DNA of 6,553 nucleotides from Alphaproteobacteria bacterium (lineage in GTDB: Bacteria; Pseudomonadota; Alphaproteobacteria; UBA8366), in NCBI GenBank assembly GCA_029861675.1, contig JAOTYV010000268.1, positions 1 through 6,553 on the forward strand. Direction: 5' to 3'. The position numbers and the translations under genes are program-made. Below, piece after piece: positions 296-6,488 of the stretch. Below the pieces are notes generated by a model. It was given only the letters and a program-made list of their open reading frames with translations. It ran no database searches and had not been told where the DNA came from. Each line of letters begins with the position of its first letter. Within the stretch, counting starts at the first letter, position 1.

Positions 296-1357
296 TCACC
301 CCGGCGCGGCGAAACCGCATCCGCTTCGGTCCGCCGGACAGACCCGCCCCCCCTCGGCGCTGCAGAGCGCAGCGGCGCCGGTCGATGGCGCGGCGGCGTT
401 TGCAGCTACCAGGTCGGCAAGTCCCGCGATAAACGCCGGGCTGGTCCCCACGGTCGCCACCCGGACGTATTGCGGAACGCCCGCCTCGCGGGCCAGTGCG
501 CGGTATTCGATATCCAGCTCAACCAGGGTTTCCGAATGCTCCGAAACGAAAGCGATCGGCACGACGACAACCGGCCGGCCATCGACACCGGCTTCCCGGA
601 TGACATCGTCGGTCGCGGGCCCGATCCATTGCAGCGGTCCCACCCGGCTCTGATAGCAAACGGTCCAATCATATCCGTCGCCGCCGACCCGCGCGGCCAC
701 CGCCGCCGCGGTCCGTTCGACCTGTCCCTGATAGGGATCGCCCGCGGCAATAATCTTTTCCGGTAGGCCGTGCGCCGTGAACAACACGCGCGGACGCAAT
801 CCGGAAGAAATCTCGCCCAGCGCCTCGCGGACGCCCCCGGCCACGGCTTCGATAAATCCATCCAGAACCGGATAGCAGCAGATCCCGGCCGTCGGCGCCA
901 TCAATCTGGCCGACTCGGCACATCGCGTCCATCGGCCGACCGACGACCCCGTCGTGGTGGTCGAGTATTGCGGATAGAGCGGTAGCATAACGACCCGATC
1001 CGGCGCCCAGTCCCGCACCGCCGTCACGGTCTCTTCGGTCAATGGATGCCAATAGCGCATCGCAATGAAACACCGAACCTCCTCCGCGATATTCCGATCC
1101 ACCAGCATCGCCGCGAGGGCCTCGGCCTGTGTTTCGGTGTTTGCCAGCAACGGCGAGCCACCACCGAGCTCTGCATATATTTGTTGGGCGACCGGTGCGC
1201 GGCGCGTGGAAATAAACCGGGCGAGTAACCAGCGTATCGGCTGCGGCGCGCCGATAATTGCCTTGTCGTTAAACAGGTTGAACAGAAAGGGCCGCAACGC
1301 TTCCGGTCCGTCGGGACCGCCGAGGTTGAACAATACGACCGCCAGCCGGTCGGTCAT
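296..1357 (-). CDS. hemH: Ferrochelatase
   Basis: Ferrochelatase inserts Fe2+ into protoporphyrin IX to make protoheme, the last step of the classical pathway, at the cytoplasmic membrane. The 353-residue product starts with the typical VVLFNLGGP and continues with LFNLFNDKAII, GGGSPLL, the YPQYSTTTTGSS segment and FTAHGLPEKI. His196 of the last motif matches the catalytic histidine of the family. SEHSETLVELD supplies the active-site glutamate (Glu276). I chose the ATG at 1357 because its ATGA overlaps the hemE stop and is preceded by a GGGG stretch. An in-frame GTG at 1378 would add seven atypical residues. The tail carries three cysteines in a CX7CX6C arrangement (Cys332, Cys340, Cys347; CSAEGGRVC then PADRSGCGF). 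This resembles the cysteine-rich C-terminus of bacterial ferrochelatases known to hold a [2Fe-2S] cluster. Cluster binding here is inferred, and the fourth ligand is not obvious (Cys234 is one candidate). Translation is probably coupled to hemE. Confidence 0.96.
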   Translation of the reverse strand: MTDRLAVVLFNLGGPDGPEALRPFLFNLFNDKAIIGAPQPIRWLLARFISTRRAPVAQQIYAELGGGSPLLANTETQAEALAAMLVDRNIAEEVRCFIAMRYWHPLTEETVTAVRDWAPDRVVMLPLYPQYSTTTTGSSVGRWTRCAESARLMAPTAGICCYPVLDGFIEAVAGGVREALGEISSGLRPRVLFTAHGLPEKIIAAGDPYQGQVERTAAAVAARVGGDGYDWTVCYQSRVGPLQWIGPATDDVIREAGVDGRPVVVVPIAFVSEHSETLVELDIEYRALAREAGVPQYVRVATVGTSPAFIAGLADLVAANAAAPSTGAAALCSAEGGRVCPADRSGCGFAAPG

Positions 1358-2448
1358 ACGGGTCCCCGCCGCACGCACTCGATCAAGGCCGCGACATGCT
1401 CCGGCGGTGTCTCCTTAATCACTCCATGGCCGAGATTGAAGATCATCGGACCGCCGCCCAACACCGAAAGAATTTCCCGAACCGCCGTCTCCATCGGCGC
1501 TCCGCCATGGAGCAGGAGGACCGGATCGAGATTGCCTTGTACCGGCAGGATCGGCTGCAACGCCGTGCGCGCCCAGGACAGCGGCACCGCACTATCCAGG
1601 CCAACCGCCGTCACGCCGGTTTCGCGCACGTAGCGTTCGTAATTGATGCCGGCGCCGCGTGGAAATCCGATGATCGGCACATCCGGGTGGCGGCTCCGCA
1701 CCTGTTCGACAATCCGTTTGGTCGGCCTAATCGACCAGCGAACGAACGCCCCTTCGGGCAACACGCCGGTGTGACTATCGAACAATTGGACCACCGCCGC
1801 GCCCGCATCGATTTGGCGATTGAGATACGCCGCGGTCGCATCGACCAACACGCCGATCAATTTTTCAAAGCCGTCCGGATCGGTAAGCGCCCAGCGTTTG
1901 ACCGTGTGAAAATCGCGGCTGGTCCCGCCCTCGACCATATAGGTCGCAACCGTCCACGGTGCGCCCGCGAAGCCGATCAGGCTGCATTCATCGGGAAGCG
2001 CCTTCGAGACGCGGCGCACCGTCTCATAGACCGGCCCGAGCGTCTCCTCGAAGCCATCATTCGTAGCGGCAGCGGCGGCGGATCGCAGTGCCGATACGCC
2101 TGCCTCATCGCGGACCGGCGCGAGACGCGGTCCCTCGCCTTCCTCGAAGCGAACCTCCTGACCCAGCGCCTGCGGGATCACCAGAATATCGGAAAATAGG
2201 ATCGCCGCATCGACACCGAACCGCCGCACCGGCTGAAGCGTAACCTCCTCGGCCAGCTCCGGCGTGTAGCACAGGGCCAGAAACCCACCCGCCTCGGCAC
2301 GGATCTTCCGGTACTCGGGCAGATACCGCCCGGCCTGACGCATCAGCCAGACCGGTGGTGTCCTCAAGATTTCCCCCGCGAGAGCACGGAGCAAGGGTGA
2401 CGGCGCAGGCCGGCGGGATGTCACGTGGTGGGGCCCCCTGGTTTGCAT
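1354..2448 (-). CDS. hemE: Uroporphyrinogen decarboxylase
   Basis: This cytosolic enzyme removes four carboxyl groups from the acetate side chains of uroporphyrinogen III to give coproporphyrinogen III, at the branch between heme and siroheme/cobalamin synthesis. Both family signatures are present: PPVWLMRQAGRYLPEYR at 31-47 (Arg37 and Arg41) and GFAGAPWTVATYMVEG at 159-174 (Tyr170). Asp87 in ILFSDILVIPQALG is the catalytic aspartate equivalent. Ser225 in FDSHTG and His341 in FNLGHGV complete the site. The body is full length for the family. The start is uncertain. The ATG at 2448 has no Shine-Dalgarno sequence. A GTG at 2424 (356-residue product beginning TSRRPAP) has AGGGGG nine bases upstream and fits the usually short N-terminus better. 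The gene leads a minus-strand heme operon and its promoter lies in the AT-rich part of the putative origin, as reported for Caulobacter hemE. Confidence 0.96.
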   Translation of the reverse strand: MQTRGPHHVTSRRPAPSPLLRALAGEILRTPPVWLMRQAGRYLPEYRKIRAEAGGFLALCYTPELAEEVTLQPVRRFGVDAAILFSDILVIPQALGQEVRFEEGEGPRLAPVRDEAGVSALRSAAAAATNDGFEETLGPVYETVRRVSKALPDECSLIGFAGAPWTVATYMVEGGTSRDFHTVKRWALTDPDGFEKLIGVLVDATAAYLNRQIDAGAAVVQLFDSHTGVLPEGAFVRWSIRPTKRIVEQVRSRHPDVPIIGFPRGAGINYERYVRETGVTAVGLDSAVPLSWARTALQPILPVQGNLDPVLLLHGGAPMETAVREILSVLGGGPMIFNLGHGVIKETPPEHVAALIECVRRGPV

Positions 2449-2450
2449 CT

Positions 2451-2490
2451 CTATTACTAATATAGATTCCTATATTAGATTATAGTTGTA
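2451..2490. other. AT-rich block, candidate DNA unwinding element
   Basis: Only 8 of these 40 bases are G or C, in sharp contrast to the GC-rich genes on either side. It begins two bases before the hemE ATG and lies on the hemE side of the DnaA-box cluster. An AT-rich block beside DnaA boxes is the usual layout of a bacterial unwinding element. The same block carries the hemE -10 box and the first inverted repeat, so low melting energy may serve promoter opening, origin opening or both. The unwinding role is inferred. Confidence 0.5.
2457..2478. promoter_or_regulatory. Perfect 9-4-9 inverted repeat at the hemE transcription start (operator candidate)
   Basis: The arms are CTAATATAG (2457-2465) and CTATATTAG (2470-2478), exact reverse complements separated by ATTC. 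CTAT at 2451-2454 and ATAG at 2482-2485 extend the dyad past small asymmetric loops. The centre holds a GATTC (GANTC) site at 2465-2469. It directly adjoins the hemE -10 box on the downstream side and ends 9 bases before the hemE ATG. Such a site could bind a dimeric repressor of heme synthesis or an origin-binding protein. I do not recognise it as a named operator. Confidence 0.5.
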
Positions 2491-2505
2491 GTGATGCGGT
2501 GAGAA
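2479..2505 (-). promoter_or_regulatory. Candidate hemE promoter
   Basis: Read on the minus strand, a perfect TATAAT hexamer occupies 2484-2479. A TTCTCA hexamer at 2505-2500 matches four of six -35 positions but with a short 15-base spacer, so the -35 is weak. Transcription would start near 2472, giving a leader of roughly 24 bases to the ATG at 2448 or 48 bases to the GTG at 2424. It would drive hemE-hemH-hemJ. The start site falls inside the inverted repeat at 2457-2478, a position suited to repression. Confidence 0.5.
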
Positions 2506-2506
2506 T

Positions 2507-2537
2507 CGGGGATTATCGGATTGCCGATCTTATCCCG
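2507..2537. other. Imperfect dyad in the putative origin
   Basis: The inner stem pairs ATCGG (2515-2519) with CCGAT (2524-2528) around an ATTG loop. The outer stem pairs CGGG and AT on the left (2507-2513, one bulged G) with AT-CCCG on the right (2532-2537). No T-run follows on either strand, so a terminator is unlikely. It lies between the AT-rich block and the first DnaA-box cluster. Function is unknown; an origin protein site or cruciform is possible. Confidence 0.35.
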
Positions 2538-2544
2538 TGCATGC

Positions 2545-2553
2545 TGTGCATTC
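2545..2553 (-). promoter_or_regulatory. Weak DnaA-box-like site
   Basis: The minus-strand reading GAATGCACA matches TTATNCACA at seven of nine positions. An even weaker match (six of nine, GCATGCACG) directly adjoins it at 2536-2544, so GTGCAT recurs with a 9-base step at 2537 and 2546 on the plus strand. Both share the orientation of the perfect box at 2564-2572, as expected for a DnaA filament nucleated there. Neither would be called without that context. Confidence 0.35.
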
Positions 2554-2563
2554 ATTGTCGGCT

Positions 2564-2572
2564 TGTGTATAA
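2564..2572 (-). promoter_or_regulatory. DnaA box, exact consensus
   Basis: The plus strand reads TGTGTATAA, so the minus strand reads TTATACACA, an exact match to the TTATNCACA consensus for DnaA. With equal base frequencies about 0.01 such matches would be expected by chance in a 356-base gap on both strands (my own estimate). It is the strongest site-level support for an origin here and probably the main anchor for DnaA. Confidence 0.7.
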
Positions 2573-2687
2573 GCGGAAACCCGGACAGGGCCAAGCCAGT
2601 AGCTTTGCCGAGTCGTGTATTGGGTGAAACAGGGGGACAAGCGGATCCGCATCCGAGTTATCCCGGCAATGCGATCCGGTGGGTATC

Positions 2688-2709
2688 GATTGTCCCTATG
2701 GGGACAATC
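2688..2709. promoter_or_regulatory. Perfect 9-4-9 inverted repeat upstream of the DUF299 gene
   Basis: The arms are GATTGTCCC (2688-2696) and GGGACAATC (2701-2709), exact reverse complements around TATG. No T-run follows on either strand, so it is not an obvious terminator. The minus strand across the loop reads TCCCCA (2704-2699), identical to the weak 'W-box' DnaA site described at the Caulobacter origin. The half-site GGGGACAA also occurs without a partner at 2633-2640. It could be an operator, an origin element or an RNA hairpin in the DUF299 leader. Confidence 0.5.
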
Positions 2710-2766
2710 TGTGCAGTGAATACGGTCTAGCGGGGGTTGATTGGGCGATCCGCCGGAATCGTGTAG

Positions 2767-2786
2767 TTATCCAGAATCTATCCGCA
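2767..2786 (+). promoter_or_regulatory. Pair of near-consensus DnaA boxes
   Basis: TTATCCAGA at 2767-2775 matches the DnaA consensus at eight of nine positions and CTATCCGCA at 2778-2786 at seven of nine. They have the same orientation, start 11 bases apart (about one helical turn), and are opposite in orientation to the left-hand cluster. A GAATC methylation-type site (2774-2778) bridges them. One single-mismatch box is not rare by chance. The in-phase pair at the edge of the putative origin makes DnaA binding plausible. Confidence 0.45.
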
Positions 2787-2804
2787 ACCGGACTGTATGA
2801 AATC

Positions 2805-3665
2805 ATGGCAACGGATCAAGCGGCGAACGGGACAGATCAACAGCGCTTCCATCTTCACCTCGTCTCGGACGCGACCGGCGAAACGATCCATAGCGTCGCG
2901 CGGGCGTGTCTCTCGCAATTCGAAGGCGTCGAACCCCAGGAACACCACTGGACCCTGGTGCGGACGACCGGTCATGTCGACAAGGTGCTGGCCAGCGTCG
3001 CGGATCATCCGGGCGTCGTCATGTTCACCATCGTCAACGATTCCCTGCGCAGTGCCTTACAGCACGGCTGCCGCAAACTCAGCGTCCCGTGCATCCCCGT
3101 GCTCGATCCGGTGATCGGCGCGCTCGCCTCCTATCTCGGTGTTGAAAGCCGTGGTGAAGCGGGCCGCCAGCACGTCCTGGACGCCGAATATTTCGAGCGA
3201 ATCGACGCCATGACCTTCGCGCTCAATCATGATGACGGACAGGGCCTGTGGAACCTGGCCAATGCCGACATTGTCCTGGTCGGCGTCTCGCGTACATCCA
3301 AAACGCCGACCTCGATGTATATCGCCAACCGCGGCTTGAAGATCGCCAACGTTCCGCTTGTCCCGGAGGTCCAGCCGCCGGACGAATTGTTCAGCGAAGC
3401 CGTCGCCAATGGGCCGCTGGTGGTCGGCCTGACGAAAACGCCCGAACGCTTGATCCAACTGCGCCGCAACCGGCTGCGCCTGCTGAGCCAGGAGGAAGAG
3501 ACCGACTATGTCGATCTCGAGCGCGTGCGGGCCGAGGTTGCCGACGCCCGGCGTTTGTTTTCGAAACACGGCTGGCCGGTCATCGACGTGACCCGCCGGT
3601 CGATTGAGGAAACCGCCGCCTCCATCCTGCAGCATTATGAGCGATCGCGTGAAAGCAACGCCTGA
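2805..3665 (+). CDS. Pyruvate phosphate dikinase / PEP synthase regulatory protein (DUF299 kinase-pyrophosphorylase, 'RP001' origin neighbour)
   Basis: Members of this family (PDRP in organisms with pyruvate phosphate dikinase, PSRP/PpsR for PEP synthase) switch their target off by ADP-dependent threonine phosphorylation and on by phosphate-dependent dephosphorylation. They thereby control pyruvate-to-PEP flux in the cytosol. The 286-residue product opens with FHLHLVSDATGETIHSVARA (15-34), the family's N-terminal hallmark. It has the P-loop-like GVSRTSKTP at 160-168, followed by SMYIANRGLKIANVPLVPE and the late motif RRSIEETAASIL. The ATG at 2805 puts this hallmark close to the N-terminus, as is usual. 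The frame stays open back to a GTG at 2679, but those 42 residues are unlike the family and cross the putative origin. No clear ribosome-binding site precedes 2805. The neighbourhood gives no hint which dikinase is the target, so I leave the symbol blank. Its stop is two bases before maf. Confidence 0.93.
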   Translation: MATDQAANGTDQQRFHLHLVSDATGETIHSVARACLSQFEGVEPQEHHWTLVRTTGHVDKVLASVADHPGVVMFTIVNDSLRSALQHGCRKLSVPCIPVLDPVIGALASYLGVESRGEAGRQHVLDAEYFERIDAMTFALNHDDGQGLWNLANADIVLVGVSRTSKTPTSMYIANRGLKIANVPLVPEVQPPDELFSEAVANGPLVVGLTKTPERLIQLRRNRLRLLSQEEETDYVDLERVRAEVADARRLFSKHGWPVIDVTRRSIEETAASILQHYERSRESNA

Positions 3666-3667
3666 AT

Positions 3668-4279
3668 ATGGCTGAGACGGAAACACAGAGGCTGATTCTG
3701 GCCTCGGCCAGCCGCGCGCGCGCCGCCGTCCTGCGTCAGGCCGGGCTGAGCATCGAGCAGGTGCCGGCCGCGGTCGACGAGGAAGAGGTCAAGCGCGCGC
3801 TGCGCGCCGACGGCAGCCCCGCGACCCATGTCGCCGAGACGCTGGCGGATCTCAAGGCGCAGCATGTCTCGCGCCGCCACGGCGGTGCGTTTGTCATCGG
3901 CGCCGATCAAATGCTCGAGTGCAACGGCGTCTGGTTCGACAAGCCCGCCGACAGGGATCATGCGCGGGCGCATCTTATGGCGCTGCGCGGAACCACGCAT
4001 GAGCTGATTACCGCGGTGGCGGTCGTGCGCGACGGTGCCCGGCTGTGGCATCACGCGGCCACCGCGCATCTGACCATGCGGCCGTTCAGCGATACGTTCA
4101 TCGAGCGCTATCTCGCCGAGGTCGGCGAGGACGCCTGCCGCTCGGTCGGCGCCTATCAGCTCGAAGGCCTCGGCGCGCAACTGTTTGCCAAGGTCGACGG
4201 CGATTTCTTCACCATTCTCGGGTTGCCTTTGTTTCCGCTGCTGGACTTCCTGCGCGGGCATGGCATCGTGGACGAATGA
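3668..4279 (+). CDS. Maf-family nucleoside triphosphate pyrophosphatase
   Basis: Maf proteins hydrolyse non-canonical or excess nucleoside triphosphates to the monophosphate and pyrophosphate, a house-cleaning role in the cytosol. The 203-residue product shows the N-terminal LILASASRARAAVL (9-22), the VDE motif (36-38), LADLKA with Lys63, and IGADQM with the catalytic Asp80. KP at 92-93, ALRGTTHELITAVAVV (105-120), GAYQLEGLGAQLF (161-173) and ILGLPL near the end complete the family pattern. The GADQ form resembles the YceF-like subgroup (7-methyl-GTP in E. coli) more than the YhdE-like dTTP/UTP subgroup with GADT, but substrate assignment is only inferred. It starts two bases after the DUF299 stop without a recognisable ribosome-binding site, which suggests translational coupling, and overlaps aroE by ATGA. 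The exact symbol is left open because two Maf paralogues are common. Confidence 0.93.
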   Translation: MAETETQRLILASASRARAAVLRQAGLSIEQVPAAVDEEEVKRALRADGSPATHVAETLADLKAQHVSRRHGGAFVIGADQMLECNGVWFDKPADRDHARAHLMALRGTTHELITAVAVVRDGARLWHHAATAHLTMRPFSDTFIERYLAEVGEDACRSVGAYQLEGLGAQLFAKVDGDFFTILGLPLFPLLDFLRGHGIVDE

Positions 4280-5118
4280 CGCTTACAGGCAAGGCCCGGC
4301 TGGCCGGCGTGATGGGGTGGCCGGTGGCGCATTCGCAATCGCCCCGGCTGCACGGCTATTGGCTTTCCCAGCATGACGTCGACGGCGCCTATCTGCCGCT
4401 CGCGGTGCAGCCGGATGATCTGGCCGTGGCCTTGCGGGCTCTGCCGGCGCTGGGATTTCGCGGCGTCAATCTGACCCTGCCGCACAAGGAACGGGCGGTT
4501 GAACTCTGCGACGAGGTCTCCGAACCGGCACGCCGCATCGGCGCGGTCAACACCATCGTGGTCGATGCGGACAACCGTCTCGTCGGCAGCAACACGGATG
4601 CCTTCGGCTTCCTCGCCAATCTGCGCGACGCCAGCGATTGGCGCGCCGATGCGGGCCCGGCGGTTCTGCTCGGCGCGGGCGGTGCGTCGCGCGCGGTCGC
4701 GGTCGCCCTGAGCGACGCGGGCGTCGAATCGATCGCCATCGCCAACCGCACGGCCCGCCGCGCCGAGGCGCTCGCCGAAACGCTGGGTGGCGCGGTTCAC
4801 GCGGTGCCCTGGGCGGCGCGGTCGGACGCCTTGGCGGATGCGGCGTTGCTGGTCAACACGACCACGCTTGGCATGCGCGGACAGCCGCCGCTCGAGTTGG
4901 ACCTGGATGCCCTTCCCACCCAGGCAGTGGTCAATGACATCGTGTATGCGCCACTCGAAACCCCGTTGCTCGCCGCCGCGCGCGCGCGCGGCAATCCGGC
5001 GGTCGACGGGCTCGGCATGCTGCTGCACCAGGCGCGGCCGGGCTTCGAGGCCTGGTTCGGCGTACGGCCCGAGGTTACGCCGGCGCTGCGCGACTTCGTG
5101 CTCGGCGGTCTGAACTAG
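4276..5118 (+). CDS. aroE: Shikimate dehydrogenase (NADP+)
   Basis: AroE reduces 3-dehydroshikimate to shikimate with NADPH in the pathway to chorismate and aromatic amino acids. The 280-residue product has the substrate-binding HSQSP motif (Ser20, Ser22), NLTLPHKE with catalytic Lys71, and GAVNTIV with Asn92. NTDAFGF supplies Asp108, the partner of the lysine. The Rossmann glycine loop GAGGASRA lies at 133-140, and ANRTARRAE (156-164) provides the basic patch expected for NADP. DGLGMLLHQA (244-253) closes the substrate pocket with Gln252. Length is typical. The ATG at 4276 overlaps the maf stop as ATGA. The frame is open further upstream inside maf, but those residues do not match the family. 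A (CG)7 run at 4977-4990 encodes Ala-Arg repeats in a surface helix region and seems incidental. Confidence 0.97.
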   Translation: MTLTGKARLAGVMGWPVAHSQSPRLHGYWLSQHDVDGAYLPLAVQPDDLAVALRALPALGFRGVNLTLPHKERAVELCDEVSEPARRIGAVNTIVVDADNRLVGSNTDAFGFLANLRDASDWRADAGPAVLLGAGGASRAVAVALSDAGVESIAIANRTARRAEALAETLGGAVHAVPWAARSDALADAALLVNTTTLGMRGQPPLELDLDALPTQAVVNDIVYAPLETPLLAAARARGNPAVDGLGMLLHQARPGFEAWFGVRPEVTPALRDFVLGGLN

Positions 5119-5133: not shown

Positions 5134-5748
5134 ATGGTCATCCTCGGACTCACCGGCTCGATCGGCATGGGAAAGAGCACGGCGGCGGCGATGTTGCGCC
5201 GGCTCGGCGTGCCGGTGCACGATTCCGACGCGGCTGTCCACCGGTTGCTCGGCCCCGGCGGGCGCGCCGTCGCCCGCGTCGAGGCGGCCTTTCCCGGCGT
5301 CGTTGCGGACGGCGCGGTCGACCGGTCGGCGCTCGGCAAGCGCGTGTTCGGCGACGCGGACGCGCTACGGCGTCTCGAAGGCATCCTTCATCCGATGGTC
5401 GGCGCGGAAAAGGGCCGGTTTCTGCGCCGCTGGGCGGAGCGCCGGGTGCGGGTCGTGGCGCTGGACGTGCCCCTGCTGTTCGAGACCGGCGGGGAGCGAC
5501 GGTGCGACGCGACGATCCTGGTGACCGCGTCGGCGTTTGTGCAAGCGGGCCGGGTGCTGCGGCGGCCCGGCATGACCGCCAAGCGTCTGGCTGAAATCCG
5601 CGCTAAGCAGATGGCGGATGGCGAAAAGCGCCGCCGCGCCGATTTCATCGTGATGACCGGGAACGGCTTTAATTCGACCTTGCGCCGACTCACCGGGATC
5701 GTCAGATTGATGGAACACCGAACCGGATGCCACTGGCCGCCGCGCTGA
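5134..5748 (+). CDS. coaE: Dephospho-CoA kinase
   Basis: CoaE phosphorylates the 3'-hydroxyl of the ribose of dephospho-CoA with ATP, the last step of coenzyme A synthesis, in the cytosol. The 204-residue product starts MVILGLTGSIGMGKST, with a Walker A loop at 8-16 (Lys14). DSDAAVH follows with Asp30 and Asp32, the second near the substrate. LHPMV (85-89), ALDVPLLFETG (109-119) and the lid/adenine segment R-x-G-M-T...R-x-x-K-Q...EKRRRADFIV (143-173) complete the family order. A GGGG stretch 5 bases before the ATG can serve as a weak ribosome-binding site in the 15-base gap after aroE. Length and all key residues are normal. The C-terminus (HRTGCHWPPR) is not conserved-looking. Confidence 0.96.
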   Translation: MVILGLTGSIGMGKSTAAAMLRRLGVPVHDSDAAVHRLLGPGGRAVARVEAAFPGVVADGAVDRSALGKRVFGDADALRRLEGILHPMVGAEKGRFLRRWAERRVRVVALDVPLLFETGGERRCDATILVTASAFVQAGRVLRRPGMTAKRLAEIRAKQMADGEKRRRADFIVMTGNGFNSTLRRLTGIVRLMEHRTGCHWPPR

Positions 5749-5819: not shown

Positions 5820-6488
5820 ATGCGCGAAATCGTCCTCGACACCGAGACCACCGGGCTCGACCCGAATGCCGGACACCGGGTCATCGAGATCGGCTGTATC
5901 GAGCTGGTGAACCACATCCCCACCGGCGAGACCTACCATCAATATATCAATCCCGAGCGCACCATGCCGCAGGAGGCGTTTGCCGTGCATGGGCTCTCGG
6001 AAGCATTTCTCGCGCAGCATCCGGTATTCGCCGACGTCGCCGCGGCGTTCGTCGATTTCATCGGTGACGCGACGCTGGTGATTCACAACGCGGCGTTCGA
6101 TATCGGTTTTATCAATGCGGAGCTGGCGCGGCTTGACCGGGACACCGTGCCGATCGGACGTGCGGTCGATACGGTGCGGATGGCGCGCGCCAAATTTCCC
6201 GGCGCCCAGGCGAGCCTGGATGCGCTCTGCCGCCGCTTCGAGATCGACAATTCGGCGCGCACCAATCATGGCGCCCTGCTGGACGCGGAATTGCTGTCGC
6301 TGGTCTATCTGGAATTGATCGGCGGGCGGCAGCCGGGGCTGGAACTCGCCTCGGCGAAGCGCGAGGGCGGGTCCATCCAAGCGGAGCGGCCGCTCCGGCC
6401 GGCGCGGCCGCATGCGCCGAGCGCGGATGAGTTGGAGGCGCACGCGGCGCTGGTCTCGACGCTGTCCGACCCGCTCTGGCGGCGCTGA
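5820..6488 (+). CDS. dnaQ: DNA polymerase III epsilon subunit (3'-5' proofreading exonuclease)
   Basis: The epsilon subunit proofreads for the replicative polymerase by removing mispaired 3' nucleotides. The 222-residue product has all DEDDh exonuclease motifs: Exo I DTETTG (Asp7, Glu9), Exo II HNAAFDIGFINAEL (Asp94), and Exo III HGALLDAELL (His150, Asp155). Right after the catalytic domain, QPGLEL (171-176) fits the clamp-binding pattern and sits where E. coli epsilon carries its weak beta-clamp motif. A basic, Pro/Arg-rich linker (about 179-200) and a short C-terminal helix (AHAALVSTLSDPLW) follow, the latter presumably contacting the polymerase alpha subunit. The ATG at 5820 places the catalytic DTETTG at the usual distance. 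The next upstream in-frame ATG (5727) would overlap coaE and add 31 unrelated residues. No good ribosome-binding site is seen. The location near the origin matches other alphaproteobacteria. Confidence 0.95.
   Translation: MREIVLDTETTGLDPNAGHRVIEIGCIELVNHIPTGETYHQYINPERTMPQEAFAVHGLSEAFLAQHPVFADVAAAFVDFIGDATLVIHNAAFDIGFINAELARLDRDTVPIGRAVDTVRMARAKFPGAQASLDALCRRFEIDNSARTNHGALLDAELLSLVYLELIGGRQPGLELASAKREGGSIQAERPLRPARPHAPSADELEAHAALVSTLSDPLWRR

Follow-up and report, generated by a model that had tools for sequence, protein, structure and literature searches.

The window, meaning the whole stretch of 6,553 nucleotides analysed in this study, contains two outward-directed gene sets separated by a gap (Table 1). 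UPF0093/hemJ, hemH and hemE are found on the minus strand to the left of the gap, and DUF299, maf, aroE, coaE and a dnaQ-like exonuclease gene on the plus strand to its right. This divergent gene order, described in an earlier note on this DNA, was confirmed. The AT-rich block named there is also present: the GC content of the gap is 50% compared with 65% for the whole window, and the hemE end of the gap is 77-80% AT. The two perfect inverted repeats of that note were recovered with 9-bp arms, one at the hemE end and the other at 2688-2696/2701-2709. The Rfam search gave no match at the gathering score.

Table 1. Features identified in the window, with positions, strands and the evidence or remarks for each.
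Feature	Position	Strand	Evidence or remark
hemE, uroporphyrinogen decarboxylase; left boundary gene	1354..2448	-	Pfam URO-D E=3.4e-116
Predicted chromosomal oriC, 356-bp gap between divergent genes	2449..2804	.	GC content; held-out profile; skew in G002
AT-rich block with 9-bp palindrome 2457-2465/2470-2478; candidate duplex-unwinding element	2449..2482	.	77-80% AT
Tract TAG TTG TAG (T-D-G units; DnaA-trio-like, read 3' to 5' GAT GTT GAT)	2483..2491	+	L001 and L027 have TAG TAG TAG at the aligned positions
Very weak DnaA box 1, top strand GGTGAGAAT	2498..2506	-	In relatives e.g. GGTGAATAA (L001), TGTGGATAA (L029)
Weak DnaA box 2, TAATCCCCG, 3 mismatches	2507..2515	-	Faces the tract, 15-nt spacer
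Weak DnaA box-like TTATCCCGT, 3 mismatches	2530..2538	+	
Strongest DnaA box TTATACACA	2564..2572	-	Lies within 16 bp (CTTGTGTATAAGCGGT/A region) that hardly differ between the window, L001 and L027
Weak DnaA box-like TTATCCCGG, 3 mismatches	2658..2666	+	
Inverted repeat of two facing weak boxes	2688..2709	.	TTGTCCCTA at 2690 (+), TTGTCCCCA at 2699 (-)
DnaA box, one mismatch, TTATCCAGA	2767..2775	+	TTATTCAGA in L001
Weak DnaA box-like CTATCCGCA, 2 mismatches	2778..2786	+	
DUF299/COG1806 kinase-pyrophosphorylase; right boundary gene	2805..3665	+	Pfam PF03618 E=7.3e-94 (ORF 2679-3665); ATG 2805 from sequence
maf	3668..4279	+	
aroE	4276..5118	+	Start from sequence
coaE	5134..5748	+	
dnaQ-like exonuclease	5820..6488	+	Start from sequence

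Two sets of relatives were used for the comparative analysis. The first set was obtained by a DUF299-protein scan of species genomes, from which the best 80 of 118 confirmed loci were taken. The window and 54 of these 80 loci, in which hemE is divergent and 200-1000 bp from DUF299, gave 55 gaps; in the remaining 26 loci hemE was absent from the stretch (E 1e-10), 3.7-4.9 kb away, otherwise arranged, or cut. The second set (class sample) consisted of 142 genomes of the class, 90 of which gave a DUF299 match. Seventy of these 90 loci were read (the 30 best by search and 40 fetched, with 20 weaker ones left out); 62 of the 70 showed the divergent gap, and 58 gaps remained after four sharing a 40-mer with the first set were dropped. 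All counts over gaps concern related sequences, which are not independent. Among the best 80 of 118 loci, the closest relatives of the window are L001 and L027, with DUF299 identity of 80-81%; both are metagenome assemblies. The genome of L027 is G002, and the skew, parS and DnaA results presented below all come from relatives.

Some loci of the first set differ in arrangement. The hemE-DUF299 distance is 3.7-4.9 kb in L048, L056, L063, L068 and L073, compared with the usual ~0.4 kb, which may mean either that genes were inserted there or that the origin moved. No hemE was found in the 6-8 kb upstream of DUF299 in L034, L047, L049, L050, L052, L054, L057, L058, L061 and L062, several of which are titled Rhodospirillaceae (window's hemE as query, E 1e-10); these loci may have an origin with another left neighbour.

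Analysis of gene order, composition and relatives indicates that the gap is very probably the chromosomal oriC. The hemE/COG1806 location is the known chromosomal origin of Caulobacter crescentus (Cori) and of Rickettsia (PMC1914354, PMC4468827, PMC4285127, as described in their available text), and the window shows both a divergent hemE/COG1806 (DUF299) intergenic region and an AT content above the surroundings; the location and neighbourhood are of an already known kind. The cumulative GC-skew check suggested in the earlier note was run on the close relative G002 and placed the minimum at the same gap: in the whole 353,448-base contig C55 the minimum is at 192,780 and the gap at 192,155-192,573, 0.2 kb apart. 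For Stella vacuolata, whose genome is complete (G003; read as 40 samples and a continuous 400 kb), the minimum is at 5,576,280, 37 kb from the gap at 5,613,504-5,613,902. The skew of a second, sampled Stella genome (G004) reverses its sign somewhere from 4.96 to 5.20 Mb, a range that includes the gap at 5.09 Mb. Of the 36 loci having 5 kb on either flank, 29 show a higher GC skew in the right arm than in the left. The local cumulative minimum is close to the gap centre (within ~550 bp) in 17 of these 36 loci and 1.1-5.2 kb away from it in the remaining 19. A search of 10 relatives for parS-like sites (up to one mismatch) found 26 in total, compared with none for the reversed-pattern control. 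Twenty-five of these, with all 10 genomes represented, lie on the contig of the gap at distances of 7-27 kb; the remaining one (G009) is on another contig. The parS site is usually close to the origin, 8 kb away in Caulobacter (PMC4468827, available text). The skew and the parS position in relatives, taken together, are the ground for the origin reading, which they strongly support.

Identification of DnaA boxes gave a mixed outcome for the earlier note. The exact box reported there does not exist as TTATCCACA, and exact consensus boxes were rejected as the main signal since this sequence is absent; what stands is TTATACACA at 2564-2572 on the minus strand, which is exact only to TTATNCACA/TTWTNCACA. 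The near-boxes claimed for both ends were not borne out at the hemE end: boxes with up to two mismatches occur only in the middle and right of the gap (2564, 2699, 2767, 2778) and those in its first 115 bases have at least three. Over the whole window 10 sites with up to two mismatches were found versus a shuffle mean of 7.2, and 37 of 200 shuffles reached 10, so there is no clear excess. Within the gap, two sites have up to one mismatch to TTWTNCACA versus 0.40 in 60 shuffles; both recur in L001 and L027, and the 203-bp spacing between the 2564 and 2767 boxes is kept in all three sequences. The exact TTWTNCACA averaged 0.00 in the 60 gap shuffles and occurs once in the gap.

Comparison with the Caulobacter and Rickettsia origins, based on published descriptions, revealed the same boundary genes, similar length (356 vs 383-404 bp), AT content above that of the genome and a few weak DnaA boxes. 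The W-box of Caulobacter, TCCCCA, also resembles the conserved TAATCCCC[AG] box. The window has a T-D-G core (described below), unlike the five loci titled Caulobacter or Caulobacteraceae, and, unlike Cori, no CtrA or IHF consensus site: CtrA sites TTAA-N7-TTAA number zero in the gap under both the strict pattern and the relaxed rule given in the available text of PMC1914354, and IHF matches number zero for the two consensus patterns WATCAN5WTR and WATCAN4TTR. Two G-boxes TGATCCACA and five W-boxes are described for C. crescentus (PMC4285127, available text), whereas the gap has no TGATCCACA within one mismatch and one TCCCCA (minus strand, 2699-2704). IHF sites were also rejected as a family feature, WATCAN5WTR occurring 10 times versus 8.3 in shuffles. 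Full CtrA sites in the first set are limited to the five gaps titled Caulobacter or Caulobacteraceae (L045, L055, L059, L060, L070), which have two each and neither the core nor a T-D-G tract. In the class sample one CtrA site was found in 6 of 62 gaps, most with a core score above 12, showing that the two are not mutually exclusive.

The most outstanding feature of the gap is absent from the earlier note: the trinucleotide tract with weak tandem boxes at 2483-2515. It forms part of a core on the hemE side, in which an AT-rich block is followed by the tract and then by two weak tandem DnaA boxes; in some relatives the boxes are CCTGTGGATAACGGGGATTA. A core profile of 39 positions, trained on the same first-set gaps on which it was scored, reached at least 14.5 bits on the plus strand in 43 of 55 gaps and exceeded 8 bits on the minus strand in none; the best score on the reversed gaps was 9.3 bits. 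In the class sample 36 of 58 gaps scored above 12 bits on the plus strand and none on the minus strand, and the reversed control exceeded 12 once (12.4). A held-out profile built without the window, L001 and L027 gave 31.5 bits at window position 2477, compared with 16.8 for the best of 300 gap shuffles. It exceeded 12 bits in the window only at the gap, and its single such match in the 353-kb G002 contig is at the gap. For a profile built without L018, L025 and L043, the single match above 12 bits over 400 kb of Stella was again the gap, and the full profile gave no match above 14 bits over 1.2 Mb of samples from the two Stella genomes. The suggestion of a distinct architecture in the earlier note holds against Caulobacter, with its CtrA, IHF and G-box elements; among the relatives of the window this arrangement is the usual one (43 of 55). 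The AT-rich palindrome was rejected as a conserved hairpin, the mean stem being 5.23 versus 4.86 in shuffles over 71 tracts (p=0.016), a weak difference.

Among 16 two-letter repeat patterns, GTN was found to be the most enriched. Four GTN repeats were present on the plus strand in 27 of 55 gaps and on the minus strand in none (shuffle mean 0.28), and in the class sample in 14 of 58 and none, respectively (shuffle mean 0.28). At least three T-N-G units were found on the plus strand in 37 of 55 gaps and on the minus strand in three (shuffles 5.8); the corresponding numbers for the class sample were 24 of 58 and one (shuffles 5.4). A census of 133 of 149 gaps (no common 120-mer), with 73 tracts having room for flanks, gave 296 units represented by TTG (115), TAG (110) and TGG (71). 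TCG never appeared, compared with a share of 23-27% in shuffled gaps. The fixed letters of the alphaproteobacterial units are the outer T and G, and tracts without any TAG amounted to 8 of 37 in the first set and 4 of 24 in the class sample. In L008, L009 and L010, which are 94-98% identical around the tract, differences within the tract occur at middle bases only. A first count over 44 pairs, with duplicates included and a tract required in both members, gave 48 middle and 18 other differences. When 36 tracts were paired to their nearest neighbour by flanks alone, mismatches numbered 25 at T, 47 at the middle base and 18 at G, with some pairs out of phase; the middle is thus the freest position, though not the only variable one.

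The published DnaA-trio has a middle adenine, and the search rule for the basal unwinding system (BUS) needs at least three consecutive 3'-NAN-5' (PMC8287927, available text). This rule and a T-D-G rule were compared using a box with up to two mismatches and a spacer of 0-16 bp, in the expected versus the opposite orientation. With the NAN rule, matches in the expected orientation were obtained in 25 of 55 gaps and matches in the opposite one in 11 (shuffles 9.4); for the class sample the numbers were 18 of 58 and 26, respectively (shuffles 9.2). T-D-G units with a co-oriented box were found in 19 of 55 gaps in the expected and two in the opposite orientation (shuffles 0.1), and in 12 of 58 and none in the class sample (shuffles 0.1). 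A TAG-only rule gave three of 55 in the expected orientation and one in the opposite, and none of 58 in the class sample. These counts show that the NAN rule finds more gaps with little excess and no orientation in the class sample, whereas the T-D-G rule finds fewer with almost no background.

In the window, box orientation and tract strand agree with the BUS rules. The best co-oriented box is TAATCCCCG, with three mismatches (the published limit is two) and a spacer of 15 within the allowed 0-16 bp; the middle bases of the tract are A, T and A, and NAN trios gave no co-oriented match at up to three box mismatches. The window fits only the T-D-G rule, through the three-mismatch box: TAATCCCCG, 15 nt, then CTA CAA CTA on the box strand. 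With a tract of three units and a box of three mismatches, the element of the window is a weak example. L001 fits both rules (NAN at two mismatches), and L027 neither at up to two mismatches. Of the 55 gaps, 24 contain the box motif GGGGATTA; it occurs 24 times on the minus strand, like box 2, and twice on the other.

In the B. subtilis cryo-EM structure the guanine of the trio is held by Arg202 and Glu228 and the adenine by Asn187 and Glu183; change of the middle A to T or G reduced strand separation and initiation, and change to C did not (PMC10721633, available text). DnaA C-terminal matches were obtained in 18 of 19 and 28 of 30 genomes searched. DnaA with a Walker motif came from 45 loci, and six matches were without it (L298 and five weaker second matches). 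All 45 alphaproteobacterial DnaAs have Glu183, Lys202 and Glu228. Position 187 is tyrosine in 35, phenylalanine in six, histidine in two and asparagine in two; position 196, an asparagine contacting the T of the trio in B. subtilis, is lysine or arginine in 43 of 45. DnaA of E. coli has glutamine at 187 and Lys202, and DnaA of T. maritima, whose origin has TAG repeats, has asparagine at 187. The residues for guanine contact remain of the same kind and Asn187, the adenine contact, has been exchanged, in parallel with the repeat, with Glu183 unchanged; this is a correlation over one class and a few references. The gaps of the two DnaAs with Asn187 (L231, L213) have no clean all-TAG tract, and a within-class correlation of residue 187 with the tract was dropped because two asparagine cases are too few.

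Comparison with the BUS of B. subtilis revealed the same order and polarity: an AT-rich part, a tract on the expected strand and co-oriented tandem boxes (PMC8287927, PMC10721633). In B. subtilis the trios occupy the strand whose 3'-to-5' direction leads away from the DnaA boxes, which are co-oriented (PMC8287927). The differences are a middle base of A, T or G instead of A, Tyr or Phe at 187 in relatives instead of Asn, and boxes with at least three mismatches in the window. The origin of Thermotoga maritima, with three essential TAG repeats, also has a trinucleotide repeat in the DUE beside DnaA boxes, with the upper strand read (PMC10316083); it differs in having TAG only and Asn at 187. 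The trios quoted in that paper for B. subtilis, H. pylori and T. maritima all have a middle A, and for E. coli only three trios are described, their requirement being called unknown (PMC6727663); these comparisons follow the available text of the papers.

Overall, an origin with a BUS-like opening element and a drifted DnaA contact is the explanation we favour, as a rather probable one. DnaA would bind a few boxes across 2498-2786, and the weak tandem boxes at 2498-2515 would direct it to the tract on their hemE side. It would then polymerise along the top strand in the 3'-to-5' direction, covering TAG TTG TAG on the way to the AT-rich block at 2449-2482, which would melt and admit the helicase. 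The geometry would be that of BUS/DnaA-trios with the guanine, and possibly the thymine, contact kept and the middle base free to be A, T or G, and we propose that this freedom results from Tyr or Phe in DnaA where B. subtilis has Asn187. The relaxed-trio mechanism itself we hold to be evenly balanced between right and wrong. The core, putatively an unwinding element, represents a new variant of the DnaA-trio type, occurs in many sampled relatives and has a testable molecular reason. No description of such an unwinding core was found in the literature searched, most subscription journals and supplements being outside it; the supplements of PMC8287927 may list such tracts.

Other readings of the gap were weighed against this explanation. 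Divergent genes need promoters and the gap is conserved, as would be expected if it served solely to drive the divergent hemE and DUF299 genes and the origin lay elsewhere, for example near dnaA. This is hardly credible given that the skew minimum and parS sites of relatives are at the gap, that dnaA in G002:C55 is at 83 kb, ~110 kb from the skew minimum, and that dnaA in Stella G003 is at the record start, beyond a mostly rising skew over the preceding 220 kb (~5.6 Mb to the record end). The absence of a sigma-70-like site in 2300-2950 points the same way as weak evidence, since one promoter type was scanned and 0.4 sites were expected.

The remaining readings accept the origin and concern its opening. 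In the manner of E. coli, the upper strand, T-rich and with motifs resembling TTGT, would once opened fold back onto gap-bound DnaA, with no filament from adjacent boxes. The E. coli DUE (TTGT/TTATT) is likewise T-rich on the upper strand, TTGT, an E. coli ssDUE motif (PMC10316083), is contained in the TTG repeats, E. coli DnaA resembles the alphaproteobacterial DnaAs in lacking Asn187 and having Lys202, and weak boxes are spread over the whole gap. However, a co-oriented box adjoins the tract at a frequency far above that of shuffles and almost always in one orientation, an arrangement not required for ssDUE recruitment; TAG and TGG, not TTG, make up 181 of the 296 units; and E. coli recruits its ssDUE through an IHF bend (PMC10316083, available text), whereas the gap has no IHF consensus site. 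We consider this manner of opening unlikely, though it carries some weight. It is more doubtful still that DnaA reads the other strand, on which the invariant T of T-D-G is an invariant A, the unit becomes 3'-CAH-5' and the adenine rule stays intact. BUS boxes sit 3' of the strand read (PMC8287927, PMC10721633, available text), but the 3' side of the lower strand here is the AT-rich hemE side, which has no box with up to two mismatches, and the boxes are on the opposite side.

PMC10316083 treats as an open question how DnaAs from various bacteria come to recognise distinct single-strand motifs. Alphaproteobacterial origins constitute a natural experiment in which, within a single class and with the repeat phase constant, the middle base is free and the contact residue has changed. 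We suggest tentatively, at somewhat below an even chance, that a variant opening code is widespread in Alphaproteobacteria, with trios 3'-G(A/T/G)T-5' read via the flanking G and T instead of the middle adenine and enabled by the change of Asn187 to Tyr or Phe, so that initiator and code would have drifted together. If true, the element is overlooked or wrongly located by published searches that require a middle A. The T-D-G tract with a co-oriented box gives a sequence rule that places the predicted opening site within hemE/DUF299 origins.

Minor observations were also made. The 80-90 kb region of G002:C55, around dnaA, is a block of positive GC skew within the negative arm. Assembly G161 has two different hemE/DUF299 regions (L302, L311, L312), which is probably contamination. 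TTNTCC...GGANAA dyads occur in 6 of 55 gaps, with 12 counts on both strands versus a shuffle mean of 1.0. Five GANTC (CcrM methylation) sites are present in the 356-bp gap (2465, 2503, 2610, 2756 and 2774), a density of 14 per kb compared with 2.3 per kb for the 15 sites of the 6553-base window. Over the 55 gaps GANTC was counted 284 times on both strands, versus a mean of 196 and a maximum of 248 in 100 shuffles, a modest excess.
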